Below, piece after piece: positions 1-42,693 of a DNA stretch of 64,000 nt. Numbering within the stretch: the stretch's first letter is position 1; every line of letters begins with the position of its first letter. Source of the DNA: Nocardioides panaciterrulae (GTDB lineage Bacteria; Actinomycetota; Actinomycetes; Propionibacteriales; Nocardioidaceae); NCBI RefSeq assembly GCF_013409645.1, contig NZ_JACCBG010000001.1, positions 1,858,001 through 1,922,000 on the forward strand, in the 5' to 3' direction. The notes beneath the pieces were generated by a model, which saw only the letters and a program-made list of their open reading frames with translations, had not been told where the DNA came from and searched no databases. The translations under genes and the position numbers were made by a program.

Positions 1-291
1 AACCTGCCCCTCGCCGAGGGCACCGGGGACGGGCCGTGGGTCGAGGCGGTCGAGCGCCTGGCGTCGTGGGTGTCCGGCTCCGGCGCGTCGGCGCTGGTCG
101 TGTCGCTGGGCGTCGACGCCGCGGCCGACGACCCGGAGAGCCCGCTGCTGGTCACCGCCGAGGGCTACCGGTCCGCCGGCGCCCTGCTCGGCGGCCTGGG
201 GCTGCCCGCCGTGGTGGTGCAGGAGGGCGGCTACCACCTGCCCTCGCTCGGGGGGCTGGTGGCGGCGTACCTGGAGGGCCACGGCTCCTGA
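1..291 (+). CDS. Histone deacetylase / acetylpolyamine amidohydrolase family, C-terminal fragment
   Basis: Only the last 96 residues lie in the window; the frame is open from base 1 to the TGA at 289-291. The family consists of zinc-dependent deacetylases acting on acetylated amines such as acetylpolyamines or acetyl-lysine. The fragment carries the SLGVDAAADDPESPL stretch, which corresponds to the region of the second zinc-binding aspartate, and the QEGGY motif whose tyrosine stabilises the transition state in family members. The remaining domains are upstream of the window, so the substrate cannot be judged. The gene ends 6 bp before the SOS-type palindrome of the next gene. Confidence 0.8.
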   Translation, partial: NLPLAEGTGDGPWVEAVERLASWVSGSGASALVVSLGVDAAADDPESPLLVTAEGYRSAGALLGGLGLPAVVVQEGGYHLPSLGGLVAAYLEGHGS

Positions 292-297
292 CCACAA

Positions 298-323
298 GTC
301 GATCGAACAGACGTTCGATCGAC
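298..323. promoter_or_regulatory. LexA/SOS box (perfect palindrome)
   Basis: The sequence is a perfect 11-bp inverted repeat around a 4-nt spacer (AGAC). Its core, TCGAAC-N4-GTTCGA at 303-318, is exactly the LexA consensus of actinobacteria. It sits just upstream of the -10 hexamer TACCAT (328-333) of the following small gene, so LexA binding would occlude RNA polymerase. It is the only TCGAAC-N4-GTTCGA noticed in the window. Confidence 0.85.
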
Positions 324-327
324 GGCG

Positions 328-333
328 TACCAT
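328..333 (+). promoter_or_regulatory. -10 hexamer of the SOS-box gene (leaderless)
   Basis: TACCAT lies 6 nt before the ATG at 340. Transcription would start at or next to the start codon. The left half of the SOS box (303-308) occupies the -35 position. Confidence 0.5.
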
Positions 334-339
334 GGCGCC

Positions 340-711
340 ATGCCCACCTACGTCGCCCCGCCCGGCTGGCCGGCCGAGGTGCGACCGCCGGACGCGCCCG
401 ACTGGGAGCGGACCGCGCAGGCCTGGCTGCTCGACCTCTGTCCGCCGGAGTTCCGCTCCTACCCGGCGCTGCGCCGGCATCTGGTGGTGCTCGCCCGGTT
501 CGCGGTGCTGCACGTCGAGGCCTGCCAGGCCGCGGTGCGCCGGGGCCTGAGCGAGGCGAGGGCCGACCTGCGGGACGTGGCGATGCCCGACGTCGTGGAG
601 GCGGCGGTGCAGACGTGGCTGGCCGAGGACGCGCGGCTCTCCGGCGTACGCCGGGCCGTGGGACTGGTCGAGGAGGCGCTGCGCGGCCGGCGGTTCGTGG
701 CCCGGCTCTGA
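340..711 (+). CDS. Small hypothetical protein under a LexA/SOS box
   Basis: This 123-residue soluble protein has no recognised domain. It begins with a proline-rich stretch containing a GWPAEVRPP motif. The rest is a predicted helical, Leu/Ala/Arg-rich body with no cysteine pairs or membrane segment. The ATG at 340 is preferred because TACCAT at 328-333 would give a leaderless mRNA; an in-register ATG is absent upstream. The gene stands alone: a deacetylase ends upstream on the same strand and a NUDIX-like gene converges from the other side. The perfect LexA-type palindrome makes DNA-damage induction likely, but nothing in the protein says what it does. A role in repair, mutagenesis or checkpoint control is inference. 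Confidence 0.75.
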   Translation: MPTYVAPPGWPAEVRPPDAPDWERTAQAWLLDLCPPEFRSYPALRRHLVVLARFAVLHVEACQAAVRRGLSEARADLRDVAMPDVVEAAVQTWLAEDARLSGVRRAVGLVEEALRGRRFVARL

Positions 712-716
712 TCGCC

Positions 717-1175
717 TCAGCGCCGCGAGGCCGGGGAGGCCGGGGAGGCCACCAGGCCCAGCGCATGCGCGTGACGCACGACGTCCGCGCCGACGGGATC
801 GTCCTCCTGCAGGTAGGCGACGGCCTGGGCAAGTGGAAGCTCGAGGACCTCCGCGACCGTCTCGCCGTCAGCCGGGTTGGTGGGCTCGCCGACGATCCGT
901 ACGTCGGCGACCGCGTAGGCCCACAGACTGCGCGGGTGCGGCAGGTGGGGCCGGAACGGGCGCTCGCGGCAGCTGTCGGCCACGTGCGCGGCGAAGCAGC
1001 GGACCTCACCCACGATCTCCGCGGCCGGGGTGACCGCGACGAGATGCAGGCGCGAGACCAGCTCCTGCGAGGCGAGCTCGGTCGTGTACCGGACCCGGGC
1101 GTCCGCGTAGTCGACGTACGCCTCGCGAAAGAGGTCCGGGAACCGCGCGCTCCAGAAGGCGTCACCTCGTCGCAT
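717..1175 (-). CDS. NUDIX-fold protein lacking the NUDIX box (degenerate?)
   Basis: The 152-residue product resembles the second half of actinobacterial NUDIX proteins. A strand-like segment RLHLVAVTPA is followed by FAAHVADS, PFRPHLPHP, and a WAYAVADVRIVGEPTNPADG segment typical of the part after the catalytic helix. The NUDIX box itself (G-x5-E-x7-REUXEExGU) is missing. The text runs from VAVTPA straight to AEIVGEVRC, as if about 25-30 codons had been removed in frame. The start is the ATG at 1175, preceded by a GGGAGG ribosome site. Without the box, pyrophosphohydrolase activity is not expected. It may be a decaying gene or a non-catalytic relative. Confidence 0.6.
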   Translation of the reverse strand: MRRGDAFWSARFPDLFREAYVDYADARVRYTTELASQELVSRLHLVAVTPAAEIVGEVRCFAAHVADSCRERPFRPHLPHPRSLWAYAVADVRIVGEPTNPADGETVAEVLELPLAQAVAYLQEDDPVGADVVRHAHALGLVASPASPASRR

Positions 1176-1264
1176 GCCCGTCAGCCTCCCAGGGCGGAGC
1201 GGCGGGCGCTGCAGATCGCTTGGCCGGGCGCGGGTCGTCCTTCCGGGCGACGCTCCCGCCCGCG

Positions 1265-2747
1265 GGAGATTTCTTTACTTTCGAATTTGCTGGTCCTGTG
1301 CAAGAAGGGCGGTTCTGGGCCCCGGGGTGTCGGTGCCGGGTGCTTGCATGGGTGCATGTTGATCACCGACCCGGCCGGGGAGCCCGTGGAGCTCGACGAG
1401 CTCGACGGTGACGCCACGCTGTCGGTGCTGTCGAGTCTGAAGGTGCAGGCGCGGGCGGTGGAGCGGGACAAGCTGCGGGTGGTGGCGCACTGGTGTGTGC
1501 TGCACCCCGCCACCGCCGAGGACGGGGTCGCCACCTGGGATCCCTCGGGCCTGCCGGGGGTGCTGGGCCAGGAGGAGTCCCTGGGTGGGGAGGGCTGTCC
1601 GCCGGTCGCGGCGTTCACCCCCGAACCCCTGGCCGCCACCTTGGGGGTCTCCAAGCACGCGGTGCGCCAGTTGATCGCCGACGCCCTGGACCTGGGCCAC
1701 CGGCTGCCCCGCTGCCGGCGGCGGGTCGAGGCGCTGGAGGTGGAGGCGTTCAAGGCCCGTCGGGTCGCCCAGCTGACCCACCCGCTGTCGCAGGCGGCGG
1801 CCGCGCAGGTCGACGCCGCCCTGGCCCCGGTGCTGCACTCGTGCTCGTTCGCGGCGATCGAGCGTGCCGTCGCGGCCGCGATCGCCGCGCACCATCCCGA
1901 GCTGGTCGCCGAGCGGGAGAAGAGGGGCAAGGACGCCTGGGACGTCACCCTTCACCACCCCGGACCGGCCGATTTCGCGGGCACGTCCTGGCTCGAGGCG
2001 ACCGGGGACACCTTGGACCTGACCGCGTTCTACGACCGGGTCGGCCAGATCGCCGCCGACCTCGCCGACGCCGGCGACACCGACCCCCTCGGCGCGCGGA
2101 AGGCCAAGGCGCTGGGGGTGCTGGCCCGCCAGGGCCTCGAGGGCGCGGAGGCCGACCTGGCCACCCTGGTCGGCGCCAGCCAGGCCGATCAGGCCCCACC
2201 GGCCCGGCCGAGGCCGCCGCGCTCGCGGAAGCCGAAGACTCACCTGTTCTTGCATTTCACGCTGCTCGAGGCGCTCGGCCTCGCGGTCGATGACGAGCTG
2301 GTGTGCGGCCAGGTCGAGAGACTCGGCCCGGTGCTGGAGGAGGCCATCCGGGCCTGGCTGGCCGGCTCCGAGGCGGTCATCACCCCCGTGTTGGACCTCA
2401 ACCGGTCCTGGGCCGTGGACGGCCACGACATCCCCGCCGCGATGCGTGAACAGGTCGTCCAACGCGACAAGCACTGCGTGCACCCCTACTGCGCCACCGA
2501 CGCCCGGGCCTGCGACCTGGACCACATCACCCCCTACCTCCCGATGGACGAGGGCGGACCACCGGGCCAGACCAACCCCGACAACCTCGCGCCTCTCTGC
2601 CGAAGACACCACCGCGCCAAGACCAGCGGCCGATGGCGCTACCGACGCGACCCCACCACCGGCAACTACCACTGGACCGGCCCCCACCACCGCCACTACC
2701 TCACCACCCCGCTAGGCACCCTCGAGCACCAGCCGAACTGACGCGCC
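1265..2747 (+). repeat. Dispersed repeat, copy 1 (DUF222-HNH gene plus conserved leader)
   Basis: About 1.48 kb is shared with 41244-42693. Similarity begins abruptly at GGAGATTTCTTTACTTTCGA, about 90 bp before the start codon, and ends 6 bp after the stop codon (TGACGCGCC). Sequences outside these limits are unrelated. There are no terminal inverted repeats and no obvious target duplication, so this is not a classical insertion sequence. It resembles the mycobacterial REP13E12 family in organisation. Confidence 0.85.
1356..2741 (+). CDS. DUF222 domain HNH endonuclease-like protein (13E12 repeat family), copy 1
   Basis: The 461-residue protein has an N-terminal DUF222 region and a C-terminal HNH nuclease motif: a CVHPYC cysteine pair, DLDHI with the catalytic histidine, NPDNLAPLC with the asparagine, and RRHHRAKT. 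HNH domains cut or nick DNA using a metal ion; the role of DUF222-HNH proteins is unsettled. The ATG at 1356 is chosen because conservation with copy 2 and codon usage begin there; no clear Shine-Dalgarno precedes it. The open frame runs much further upstream without coding signal. It differs from copy 2 mainly by 33 extra bases (11 codons) in the variable linker near 2135-2190 and by scattered third-position changes. Both copies look intact. Confidence 0.85.
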   Translation: MLITDPAGEPVELDELDGDATLSVLSSLKVQARAVERDKLRVVAHWCVLHPATAEDGVATWDPSGLPGVLGQEESLGGEGCPPVAAFTPEPLAATLGVSKHAVRQLIADALDLGHRLPRCRRRVEALEVEAFKARRVAQLTHPLSQAAAAQVDAALAPVLHSCSFAAIERAVAAAIAAHHPELVAEREKRGKDAWDVTLHHPGPADFAGTSWLEATGDTLDLTAFYDRVGQIAADLADAGDTDPLGARKAKALGVLARQGLEGAEADLATLVGASQADQAPPARPRPPRSRKPKTHLFLHFTLLEALGLAVDDELVCGQVERLGPVLEEAIRAWLAGSEAVITPVLDLNRSWAVDGHDIPAAMREQVVQRDKHCVHPYCATDARACDLDHITPYLPMDEGGPPGQTNPDNLAPLCRRHHRAKTSGRWRYRRDPTTGNYHWTGPHHRHYLTTPLGTLEHQPN

Positions 2748-2832
2748 CGGTGGTCGCCCGGGCGGTGACCTTGGCCCCTACCCACTCGGGTCGGCACGGC
2801 GGTCTCCTCGAAGCCCGGGGAGAGGATCGACG

Positions 2833-3612
2833 ATGAATGGTCCATGGCGTGGTGCCGGCGGCTCCCGGGTGCCCGCCCTGGGGGTCGTGGCCGCGTTGGT
2901 GCTGACCCTCGCGGTGCTGGGGCCGTTGACGGTGACGCCCGCGCCCGCCGCAGGTGCCACGGCGGGAGGGACACTTCGCGATCCGTTCAGCCGCGAGATC
3001 GTGCGCCGGGGCGACGTCGATGCCGACCCGTACCACATCGAGCATGTCTACGAGGTCCAGTACCGACTCAAGCGGGTCGGCCTCTTCGACGCGGTCCCGA
3101 ACGGCCAGTTCGGTCCCATCACCGAGGCCGGCGTCAAGAAGTTCCAGAAGAGGATCGGGGTCAGGCCGACCGGGATCGCCAACCGCCCCACCTGGCGTCG
3201 GTTGATCAAGCAGAGCGTGCGTGGTCGCGGCGCCGTCCCACCCGGCTGCACGACAAGCGGCTGGCACGCCTGCTACGACCGCTGGTGGCACCAGGTGAAC
3301 CTCTACCACGACGGGAAGCTGCTCAATTCCTGGCTGGTGCGCGGTGGAGGGAGCTCCACACCCACCCGCACAGGGACCTTCCGGGTGTACTACCGGGATA
3401 TCGACCATGTCAGCAGCGCCTTCCACACCCCGATGCCCTACGCGCAGTTCTTCTCCGGAGGCCAGGCCCTGCACGGCTCGCGGCTGATGATGGACCCGTA
3501 CGTCGGGCACAGTCACGGCTGCGTGAACTTCTGGACCGAGGACGCGCGGCAGCTGTGGGCGCTCACCTCCCACAAGCGCCTCCGGGTGCACGTGTACGGA
3601 CAGTGGAGCTGA
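2833..3612 (+). CDS. Exported L,D-transpeptidase (YkuD) with peptidoglycan-binding domain
   Basis: The 259-residue protein has a hydrophobic signal segment at residues 14-35 ending in an Ala-rich processing region, a peptidoglycan_binding_1 domain at about 65-125 (YHIEHVYEVQYRLKRVG, GQFGPITEAGVKKFQ), and a YkuD catalytic domain at about 150-258. The active-site signature is H214 followed by the HGC-x-N motif with nucleophile C230. Such enzymes make 3-3 cross-links in peptidoglycan, or attach or remodel wall components, outside the membrane. GGAGAGGAT just upstream supports the ATG at 2833. It converges with a membrane protein gene. The exact wall reaction cannot be told from sequence. Confidence 0.9.
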   Translation: MNGPWRGAGGSRVPALGVVAALVLTLAVLGPLTVTPAPAAGATAGGTLRDPFSREIVRRGDVDADPYHIEHVYEVQYRLKRVGLFDAVPNGQFGPITEAGVKKFQKRIGVRPTGIANRPTWRRLIKQSVRGRGAVPPGCTTSGWHACYDRWWHQVNLYHDGKLLNSWLVRGGGSSTPTRTGTFRVYYRDIDHVSSAFHTPMPYAQFFSGGQALHGSRLMMDPYVGHSHGCVNFWTEDARQLWALTSHKRLRVHVYGQWS

Positions 3613-10026: not shown

Positions 10027-12150
10027 TCAGTGGAACTTCTTCCCACTCACCTTCTCACCCAGCCCCAGCCGGTCCAGCAGCATCGTCAGGCCGCCGTTCC
10101 AGAAGGAGAACCCGGCCCCGGTGATCATCGCGAGGTCGAGGTCCTCCGGCGCGGCGACGACGCCCTCGTCGAGCATCAGCCGCGCCTCCTCGGCGAGCCC
10201 AGCCAGCGTGCGCTCGCGCACCTCGGCGGGCTCGAGGACCACCGGCGAGGCCGGCTTCTCGAGCAGTGCCTCGACCTCGGGGTCGAGGCTGCCGTCGGGC
10301 CCGTAGTACGCCGCCTTCCGCGCCGCCACCACGCGCTCGAGCGCGGGCGAGACGTAGAACCGGTCGGGGAACGCCCTGTGCAGCGTCTCGTTGTTGTGCA
10401 GCGCGATCGCCGGCCCGACCAGCGAGAGCAACATGAACGGCGGCATCGGCGCGACCCCCGCGAACGCGGAGTCGACCACCGGCACCGGCGTGCCCTCGTC
10501 GACGATCCGCCCGACCCCGCCCATGAACCGGCCGAGCAGCCGGTTGACGATGAAGGACGGGCTGTCCTTGACCAGGATCGTGGTCTTCTTCAGCGCCTTG
10601 CCGGTCGCGAACGCCGTGGCCAGCGTCGCGTCGTCGGTCCGCTCGCCCTTCACGATCTCCAGCAGCGGCATCACCGCGACCGGGTTGAAGAAGTGGAACC
10701 CGACGACCCGCTCGGGGTGCTCGAGGTCGGCGGCCATCTCGGTGATCGACAGCGAGGAGGTGTTGGTGGCCAGGATGCACTCCGGCGACACCGTCTTCTC
10801 GACGTCGGCGAAGACCTGCTTCTTCACCGACATCTCCTCGAAGACCGCCTCGATGACGAAGTCGGCGTCGGAGAAGGCGTCGACACCCTCGGCTCCGCCG
10901 CTGAGTGCGCCGGAGACCAGGGCCTTGTGGCGGTTGGCCTTGTCCCCGCCGATCCGGCCCTTGGCGAGCAGCTTGTCGATCTCGGCGTGCACGTAGGCGA
11001 CGCCCTTGTCGACCCGCTCCTGGTCGAGGTCGGTGAGCACCACCGGCACCTCGAGCCGGCGCACGAAGAGCAGGGCCAGCTGGCTGGCCATCAGCCCGGC
11101 GCCGACGATGCCGACCTTGGTCACCGGTCGCGCCAGCGACCGGTCCGGCGCGCCGGCCGGACGCTTGGCCCGCTTCTGCACGAGGTCGAAGGAGTAGAGC
11201 GACGCCAACAGCTCCGGGGTGCGGGACATCGCCTCGAGGGCCTCGTCCTCGCGGGCGAAGCCGGCGTCGCGGTCGCCGTCGCGGGCGGCCTCGATCAGCT
11301 CGACGGCCTTCTTCGCCGCCGGGCTGGCACCTCCGGTCTTCGCCTCGACCACCGATCGGGCCTTCGCGACCGCGGCGTCCCACGCCTCCCCGCGGTCGAT
11401 CTCGGCCCGGTCGACGGTGACCGTGCCGTTGAGCACGTCGGCCGCCCAGCGCAGCGACTGCTCGAGGAAGTCGGCGCCGGAGAAGCAGGCGTCGGCCAGC
11501 CCGAGCGCGTAGGCCTCGGCGCCCTTGAGCACCTTCCCGTTGTTCAGAGGGTTCTCGATGATGACCTTGACGGCCTGCTCCGCGCCGACCAGGTTCGGCA
11601 CGAGGAACGCGCCGCCCCAGCCGGGGACCAGGCCGAGCATGACCTCGGGCAGGCCGAGCGCCGGGGCGCTGTCCATCACGGTGCGGTAGCCGCAGTGCAG
11701 GGCGACCTCGAGGCCGCCGCCGAGCGCGAGGCCGTTGACGAACCCGAACGACGGCTTGGCCCGGCCGTTCACCCCGTCCTGCAGCTTGCGCATCACCGCG
11801 TGGCCGAGCTCGGCGATCACGCGTACGCCGTCCGGGCCGCCGCCCGCGATCGAGGTCAGGTCGGCGCCGGCGGCGAGGATGAACGGCTTGCCGGTCACGC
11901 CGATCGAGGTGATCTCGTCGTCGGCCAGCGCCGCGTCGATCGCGGTGTTCAGCGCGATCAGGCCGCGCGGCCCGAACGTGTTCGGCTTGGTGTGGTCCTC
12001 GCCGTTGTCGAGGGTGATCAGGCCCATGACGCCGGCGCTCCGGCCGTCGCCGCCCACCAGGGTGACCTTGCGCAGCTTGGCGTCGGTGACCCGTTCGGCG
12101 TCGGTGGCGAGCTCCTGCGCGCGGGCCAGGAGGTTGTCGATGGCGCTCAC
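10027..12150 (-). CDS. fadB: Multifunctional beta-oxidation alpha subunit: enoyl-CoA hydratase / 3-hydroxyacyl-CoA dehydrogenase
   Basis: FadB hydrates trans-2-enoyl-CoA and oxidises the resulting 3-hydroxyacyl-CoA with NAD+, passing 3-ketoacyl-CoA to the thiolase. The 707-residue protein has an N-terminal crotonase domain (oxyanion-hole segments AAGADLTSIAGG and GLALGGGLEVALHCGYR), a Rossmann domain starting KVGIVGAGLMASQLALLF, the HxxNP motif in VGFHFFNPVAVMPLLEIV, and C-terminal helical domains. Length and order match the actinobacterial trifunctional alpha subunit. The start is the GTG at 12150, overlapping the fadA stop as GTGA, which indicates translational coupling. Confidence 0.95.
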   Translation of the reverse strand: MSAIDNLLARAQELATDAERVTDAKLRKVTLVGGDGRSAGVMGLITLDNGEDHTKPNTFGPRGLIALNTAIDAALADDEITSIGVTGKPFILAAGADLTSIAGGGPDGVRVIAELGHAVMRKLQDGVNGRAKPSFGFVNGLALGGGLEVALHCGYRTVMDSAPALGLPEVMLGLVPGWGGAFLVPNLVGAEQAVKVIIENPLNNGKVLKGAEAYALGLADACFSGADFLEQSLRWAADVLNGTVTVDRAEIDRGEAWDAAVAKARSVVEAKTGGASPAAKKAVELIEAARDGDRDAGFAREDEALEAMSRTPELLASLYSFDLVQKRAKRPAGAPDRSLARPVTKVGIVGAGLMASQLALLFVRRLEVPVVLTDLDQERVDKGVAYVHAEIDKLLAKGRIGGDKANRHKALVSGALSGGAEGVDAFSDADFVIEAVFEEMSVKKQVFADVEKTVSPECILATNTSSLSITEMAADLEHPERVVGFHFFNPVAVMPLLEIVKGERTDDATLATAFATGKALKKTTILVKDSPSFIVNRLLGRFMGGVGRIVDEGTPVPVVDSAFAGVAPMPPFMLLSLVGPAIALHNNETLHRAFPDRFYVSPALERVVAARKAAYYGPDGSLDPEVEALLEKPASPVVLEPAEVRERTLAGLAEEARLMLDEGVVAAPEDLDLAMITGAGFSFWNGGLTMLLDRLGLGEKVSGKKFH

Positions 12151-41243: not shown

Positions 41244-42693
41244 GGAGATTTCTTTACTTTCGATTTGGCTGGTCCTGTGCAACAAGTGCGGTTCTGGGCC
41301 CCGGGGTGTCGGTGCCGGGTGCTTGCATGGATGCATGTTGATCACCGACCCGGCCGGCGAACCCGTGGAGCTCGACGAGCTCGACGGTGACGCCACCCTG
41401 TCGGTGCTCACGAGCCTGAAGGTCCAAGCGCGGGCGGTCGAGCGGGACAAGCTACGGGTCGTGGCCCACTGGTGCGTACTGCACCCCGCCACCGCCGAGG
41501 ACGGGGTCGCCACCTGGGACCCCTCGGGCCTGCCCGGCGTGCTGGGCCAGGAGGAGTCCCTGGGTGGCGATGGGTGTCCGCCGGTCGCGGCGTTCACCCC
41601 CGAACCCCTGGCCGCCACCCTGGGGATCTCCAAGCACGCGGTGCGCCAGCTGATCGCCGACGCCCTGGACCTGGGCCACCGGCTGCCCCGCTGCCGGCGG
41701 CGGGTCGAGGCGCTGGAGGTGGAGGCGTTCAAGGCCCGCCGGGTCGCCCAGCTGACCCACCCGCTGTCGCAGGCGGCCGCAGCCCAGGTCGACGCCGCCC
41801 TGGCCCCGGTGCTGCACTCGTGCTCGTTCGCGGCGATCGAGCGTGCCGTCGCGGCCGCGATCGCCGCGCACCATCCCGAGCTGGTCGCCGAGCGGGAGGC
41901 GAGGGGCAAGGACGCCTGGGACGTCACCCTGGGCCACCCCGGCCCGGCCGATTTCGCGGGCACGTCCTGGCTCGAGGCGACCGGGGACACCTTGGACCTG
42001 ACCGCGTTCTACGACCGGGTCGGCCAGATCGCCGCCGACCTCGCCGACGCCGGGGACACCGACCCCCTCGGGGCCCGGAAGGCCAAAGCCCTCGGGGTGC
42101 TGGCCCGCCAAGGCCTCAACGACGACCAGCCGGATCAGGCTCCACCGGCCCAGTCGAAGCCGCCGCGCTCGCGGAAGCCGAAGACCCACCTGTTCATGCA
42201 CTTCACACTGCTCGAGGCACTCGGCCTCGCGGTCGATGACGAACTGGTGTGCGGACAGGTCGAGAAGCTCGGCCCGGTGCTGGAGGAGGCCATCCGGGCC
42301 TGGTTGGCCGGCTCCGAGGCGGTCATCACCCCGGTGTTGGACCTCAACCGGTGCTGGGCCGTGGACGGCCACGACATCCCGGCTGCGATGCGCGAGCAGG
42401 TCGTCCAACGCGACAAGCACTGCGTGCACCCCTACTGCGCCACCGACGCCCGGGCCTGCGACCTGGACCACATCACCCCCTACCGCCCGATGGACGAGGG
42501 CGGGCCACCCGGCCAGACCAACCCCGACAACCTCGCCCCCCTCTGCAGGCGACACCACCGCGCCAAAACCAGCGGCCGATGGCGCTACCGACGCGACCCC
42601 ACCACCGGCAACTACCACTGGACCGGCCCCCACCACCGCCACTACCTCACCACCCCCCTCGGCACCCTCGAGCACCAGCCCAACTGACGCGCC
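41244..42693 (+). repeat. Dispersed repeat, copy 2 (DUF222-HNH gene plus conserved leader)
   Basis: This is the second copy of the segment at 1265-2747. The 91-bp leader differs from copy 1 at only about half a dozen positions and includes the GGGCCCCGGGGTGTCGGTGC block. The insertion-like boundaries at GGAGATTTC and TGACGCGCC are the same. Confidence 0.85.
41335..42687 (+). CDS. DUF222 domain HNH endonuclease-like protein (13E12 repeat family), copy 2
   Basis: The 450-residue protein is nearly identical to the product at 1356-2741, with the same HNH signature (CVHPYC, DLDHI, NPDNLAPLC, RRHHRAKT). The linker after LARQGL is shortened to NDDQPDQA, accounting for the 33-bp length difference. 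The ATG at 41335 aligns with the start of copy 1; an in-frame TTG twelve bases upstream is an alternative. Both copies remain open and conserved in protein, which argues for selection or recent gene conversion. Confidence 0.85.
   Translation: MLITDPAGEPVELDELDGDATLSVLTSLKVQARAVERDKLRVVAHWCVLHPATAEDGVATWDPSGLPGVLGQEESLGGDGCPPVAAFTPEPLAATLGISKHAVRQLIADALDLGHRLPRCRRRVEALEVEAFKARRVAQLTHPLSQAAAAQVDAALAPVLHSCSFAAIERAVAAAIAAHHPELVAEREARGKDAWDVTLGHPGPADFAGTSWLEATGDTLDLTAFYDRVGQIAADLADAGDTDPLGARKAKALGVLARQGLNDDQPDQAPPAQSKPPRSRKPKTHLFMHFTLLEALGLAVDDELVCGQVEKLGPVLEEAIRAWLAGSEAVITPVLDLNRCWAVDGHDIPAAMREQVVQRDKHCVHPYCATDARACDLDHITPYRPMDEGGPPGQTNPDNLAPLCRRHHRAKTSGRWRYRRDPTTGNYHWTGPHHRHYLTTPLGTLEHQPN

Follow-up and report, generated by a model that had tools for sequence, protein, structure and literature searches.

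A LexA-box gene of an unnamed actinomycete protein family in Nocardioides panaciterrulae, a candidate accessory of DnaE2-type translesion synthesis

Described LexA-controlled systems and the focal locus

The small accessory proteins of the SOS response, such as RecX, DinI, SulA, and ChiZ, are encoded by small, LexA-controlled, single-gene units. LexA regulons usually include some genes without an assigned role; earlier ones of this kind yielded division inhibitors and mutagenesis factors. In Streptomyces venezuelae, the LexA motif is tCGAAC-N4-GNNCGa (PMC9380542). A further system described in actinobacteria is the DnaE2B - ImuB-C - PolY - RecA module (PMC12926913).

We analyzed a gene for a 123-residue protein (the focal gene) in a 64-kb stretch of Nocardioides panaciterrulae DNA, the whole of which is referred to as the window. 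Like the genes of RecX, DinI, SulA, and ChiZ, it is small, predicted to be LexA controlled, and a single-gene unit; unlike theirs, its product matches no sequence family or fold. The genome resembles S. venezuelae in its operator core, in the promoter position of the operator, and in the apparent co-regulation of recA, lexA, dnaE2, and alkB, but in the accessible text of that study (PMC9380542) no core LexA target is recognizable as the focal product, and the Streptomyces homologues that we inspected lack the box of the Nocardioides gene. As in the accessible description of the DnaE2B module (PMC12926913), a divergent DnaE2 is found here together with DUF6504, a nearby DinB-like polymerase, and a perfect LexA box. 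The focal protein, in contrast, is all-helical, is encoded elsewhere on the chromosome, and is not mentioned in that text. A search of the open-access literature found no paper on the focal gene.

The operator and the gene that it precedes

Table 1. Features at the start of the window (window coordinates)
Feature	Position	Strand	Remarks
End of upstream gene, histone-deacetylase-like (PF00850)	1..291	+	stops short of the operator
26-bp perfect palindrome, predicted LexA operator	298..323		core TCGAACAGACGTTCGA at 303-318; conserved at 79/80 homologous loci
Probable -10 hexamer TACCAT	328..333	+	9 nt past the box core; from comparison across 79 loci
123-aa protein, unnamed family	340..711	+	AlphaFold2 model, pLDDT 91; helices 22-33, 36-40, 42-46, 48-79, 83-116
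Convergent unnamed gene	717..1175	-	stop side 5 bp past the focal gene

The palindrome reads GTCGATCGAAC-AGAC-GTTCGATCGAC, an exact inverted repeat with 11-bp arms and a 4-bp spacer that encloses the 16-bp LexA consensus core TCGAAC-N4-GTTCGA. It is intergenic, lying between the histone-deacetylase-like gene and the focal ATG, and its end is 16 bp from that ATG. From base composition, 0.001 perfect sites are expected per window and 0.06 per genome; the window contains this one. Ten further sites with two mismatches were all found inside called genes, and thus no other gene of the window has an intergenic box. The sequence-only reading, which had described a perfect LexA box with 11-bp arms over the promoter of the 123-residue open reading frame and had noted that uvrB lacks one, was right on both points, the latter for sites with up to two mismatches. 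Its statement that the site is the only one of its kind is true of the window and does not extend to the genome, where the site is one of four.

These four perfect sites occur in 4.27 Mb, whereas a reversed control pattern gave none. They mark the focal gene, the gene of an AlkB-like oxygenase, the DUF6504-HEPN-dnaE2 operon, and an orphan gene of 95 codons. Intergenic sites with one mismatch precede recA and lexA, of which the genome has one copy, and three more lie in the region of a LysM-domain gene. The remaining one-mismatch sites that we inspected were inside or across called genes or, at two loci (L154 and L156), in sequence without a called gene. Because the motif marks the classical SOS set in a genome that encodes LexA, we read the palindrome as a LexA operator. 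As a prediction from sequence, this assignment, and with it LexA control of the focal gene, is close to certain. At 26 bp, the palindrome is longer than the LexA core, as it might be if a different regulator, such as a TetR-type protein, bound there. This reading is very unlikely, however, since the orthologues keep the 16-bp core and not the outer extension, the same core is found here at lexA and recA, and it is the LexA-bound motif given for Streptomyces (PMC9380542).

The GC content of the open reading frame is 0.84, 0.54, and 0.96 at the three codon positions, and differences among orthologues are most frequent at the third position (0.125, 0.106, and 0.395, respectively). Thus, the frame is a real gene, and its product, judged from these differences, is under purifying selection. 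Since the convergent gene follows so closely, the transcript is probably monocistronic. A generic sigma-70 scan returned no promoter, and the -10 hexamer was placed by comparing loci. Among 79 loci, a TAnnnT sequence follows the box by 0 to 2 nt in 33 and by 7 to 9 nt in about 36, with almost none at other offsets; the shuffled control had a mean of 0.46 per offset. The set (L039-L118) therefore displays two discrete promoter layouts for one gene. The usual spacing of 6 to 7 nt from the -10 hexamer would place the transcription start on the ATG or beside it, so that the mRNA is likely leaderless. Rfam had no match in positions 1-3000 of the window.

We infer from this arrangement that a LexA dimer would occupy the palindrome in undamaged cells, over the promoter spacer and beside the -10 hexamer, and block transcription. 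DNA damage would lead to RecA filaments and self-cleavage of LexA, after which the transcript of the helical protein, probably a leaderless one, would be made alongside those of the DUF6504-HEPN-dnaE2 operon, the alkB-like gene, recA, and lexA. This repression and induction half of the proposed mechanism has strong support from the sequence.

Conservation of the box and history of the family

In a first set of genomes, all 30 genus orthologues were preceded by a LexA box with at most one mismatch. A second set of 80 homologous Nocardioidaceae loci, which overlaps the first, comprised 64 with a perfect box and 15 with one mismatch; only one locus (L078) had no box within 150 bp. Shuffled upstream sequences usually had a best site with 4 to 6 mismatches. 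The recA gene carried a box with one mismatch in 59 of 61 genomes, including all genus members tested, with the focal gene present or absent. Thus, the motif is a stable LexA site throughout the genus. The sequence-only reading had proposed a DNA-damage-induced protein and had pointed to orthologues as the place to look for the box. Its retention across the genus (30/30 and 79/80), together with the same motif at lexA, recA, dnaE2, and the alkB-like gene, favors that prediction. In one genome, the recA match was in two parts within a single open frame of 800 aa, as an inserted intein would give (G048:C157:13489-15597).

Of 395 genomes sampled from the class Actinomycetes, 153 carry the family, as do 68 of 137 genera. 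In many actinomycete families, the homologue is flanked by acn and dxs and has no box close by, and some of these genes start within about 10 to 20 bp of the acn stop. Boxes with 0 to 2 mismatches were found in five families (f1, f2, f9, f92, and f117), the two-mismatch cases being uncertain. On a tree of 99 proteins, the state of the box changed about six times, at least three of the changes being forced by supported branches; LexA control has therefore probably arisen or disappeared on more than one occasion. The boxless homologues of the Streptomyces branch, which is short, and the many acn-linked ones indicate that SOS control is not needed for basal function, and from its distribution the family is old and not limited to SOS control.

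At the focal locus, the conserved chromosomal neighborhood includes YjbQ upstream and NUDIX, SMP-30-like, and dxs genes downstream. A phage or mobile-element origin was considered and rejected: the protein occurs in no phage record and in only five plasmid records, mostly megabase-scale actinomycete replicons, and the conserved neighborhood agrees with this.

As the sequence-only reading held, the protein belongs to no known family, with no convincing match in Pfam, NCBIfam, PADLOC, or PHROGs; sub-threshold library matches to ThcOx and SecE were rejected as chance. The AlphaFold2 model (pTM 0.80) consists of a proline-rich arm with an invariant W10-P11, short helices, and a hairpin of the two long helices. 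Foldseek found nothing below an E value of 0.001 in PDB or BFVD (weak long-helix matches were disregarded), and PDB gave no sequence match. The sequence has a predicted pI of 7.9; inspection by eye showed no clamp-binding motif, and no LysM or other domain was found. The protein does not resemble ImuA, ImuB, or a beta-barrel, and with its all-helical model and the absence of family and PDB matches, we found no sign of homology to ImuA, ImuB, ImuB-C, or UmuD-like subunits.

Co-occurrence with DUF6504 and candidate roles

The DUF6504-HEPN-DnaE2 operon, of which DUF6504 is the first gene, is about 211 kb from the focal gene, which is not a member of it; about 1 kb past the operon is a DinB-like gene. 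The DnaE2 encoded there (G000:C1:1647221-1654500, L251) scores below the NCBIfam cutoffs of the DnaE1-type and error-prone DnaE models. With DUF6504 and HEPN, it may form a DnaE2B-type system. From the operon context, on which its use as a mutasome marker rests, we infer that DUF6504 is the ImuB-C of the actinobacterial module. If so, the layout, with its DinB-like gene, fits the pattern outlined for that module (PMC12926913). A search for annotated plasmid homologues that might identify DUF6504 as the ImuB C-terminal domain gave no hits, and DUF6504 did not occur in the open-access papers listed by a literature search that named it.

Within the genus, the focal gene and DUF6504 were both present in 28 genomes and both absent from 27, with 3 genomes carrying only the focal gene and 1 only DUF6504 (Fisher p=2e-12). 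An equally patchy control gene scored for presence and absence (window 10030-12150, a FadB-type enzyme by appearance) gave p=0.44 in the same comparison. Close copies of the divergent DnaE2 (at least 72% identity) were found almost only in members with the focal gene; four genomes (G007, G012, G019, and G022) have the focal gene and DUF6504, and no close copy was found in them. Mapped on a recA tree, the focal gene shows about ten changes; DUF6504 took the same direction in 4.7 of six supported independent pairs and the opposite direction in 0, compared with 0.3 and 1.7 for the control. The sign test reached only p=0.06 because supported branches were few and the recA tree is weak. Across 137 genera, the counts were 58 with both, 10 with the focal gene only, 18 with DUF6504 only, and 51 with neither (p=1e-12, in a test that treats genera as independent, ignoring phylogeny, on genome samples whose completeness may be uneven). 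Members with the focal gene and no DUF6504 are G040, G055, G058, and the Streptomyces branch. The association extends to families with a boxless gene; shared SOS control alone is thus insufficient to explain it.

That the gene is kept and lost together with DUF6504 suggests that its product helps the error-prone polymerase machinery. We therefore favor, with a probability of about 0.4, a single-gene SOS unit, repressed by LexA and induced by damage, that encodes an accessory of DnaE2-type translesion synthesis. The protein would most likely act in trans: small and entirely helical, it would serve the actinobacterial DnaE2 machinery as an accessory or adaptor; this half of the mechanism is a correlation, and any physical or functional contact with DnaE2 is conjectural. 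It is quite possible that the protein answers to LexA and acts in damaged cells outside translesion synthesis, its target being, for example, RecA filaments, the nucleoid, or a different step of repair, and DUF6504 being merely common in genomes with a rich SOS response. The conserved box, the genome-wide sites, and the promoter phasing would all fit this, as would the location of the gene far from dnaE2 in a conserved neighborhood of its own. Against it are the co-occurrence in families whose gene has no box and the recA boxes that genus members carry regardless of the focal gene. A broader form of the accessory reading is somewhat less likely: that the DnaE2/ImuB-C/Y-family translesion machinery has in this unnamed ancient family a subunit or regulator that has been overlooked, and that the gene, at first next to acn and dxs and free of SOS control, was later brought under LexA in several lineages.

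Two other roles are less probable still. Division inhibitors are typically small single-gene SOS units, and residues 48-66 of the focal protein have a borderline mean hydropathy of 1.68, as might a membrane-directed checkpoint protein like SulA, DivS, or ChiZ. Yet the stretch contains the charged residues R53, H58, and E60 and is part of the predicted long hairpin, and the ChiZ-like part may already be played in this genome by the LysM-domain gene with its three LexA-like sites, which makes a checkpoint role improbable. A function in central or isoprenoid metabolism with Acn and Dxs, the LexA box being a later addition in some lineages, would account for the position of so many homologues between acn and dxs. 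We consider it more doubtful again: adjacency need not mean shared function, members in Nocardioides, Streptomyces, and f92 keep the gene despite having lost the tight linkage, and metabolism offers no explanation for the co-occurrence with DUF6504. The family is wide in Actinomycetes, unnamed and unmatched in fold, and follows a marker of error-prone polymerase systems; were it part of the mutasome, the machinery for damage-induced mutation in this phylum would gain a component.

Three further observations concern other genes. The fourth perfect LexA box stands directly before the small unnamed 95-aa gene (G000:C1:2186191; locus L148:2992-3315), whose product has no Pfam or NCBIfam match and has partial homologues on Nocardioidaceae plasmids. 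The three LexA-like sites near the LysM-domain gene (G000:C1:3533975-3534057; locus L145:3976-4058) lie between it and a divergent toxin-like gene, which encodes a WXG100-like protein with a CdiA-type RNase A domain and is followed by a CdiI-type immunity gene; the two are possibly a DNA-damage-induced interbacterial toxin pair. Within the window, two genes at 1356-2741 and 41335-42687 (HNH/13E12-like by eye) have almost identical protein starts, which suggests a recent duplication or a mobile copy.
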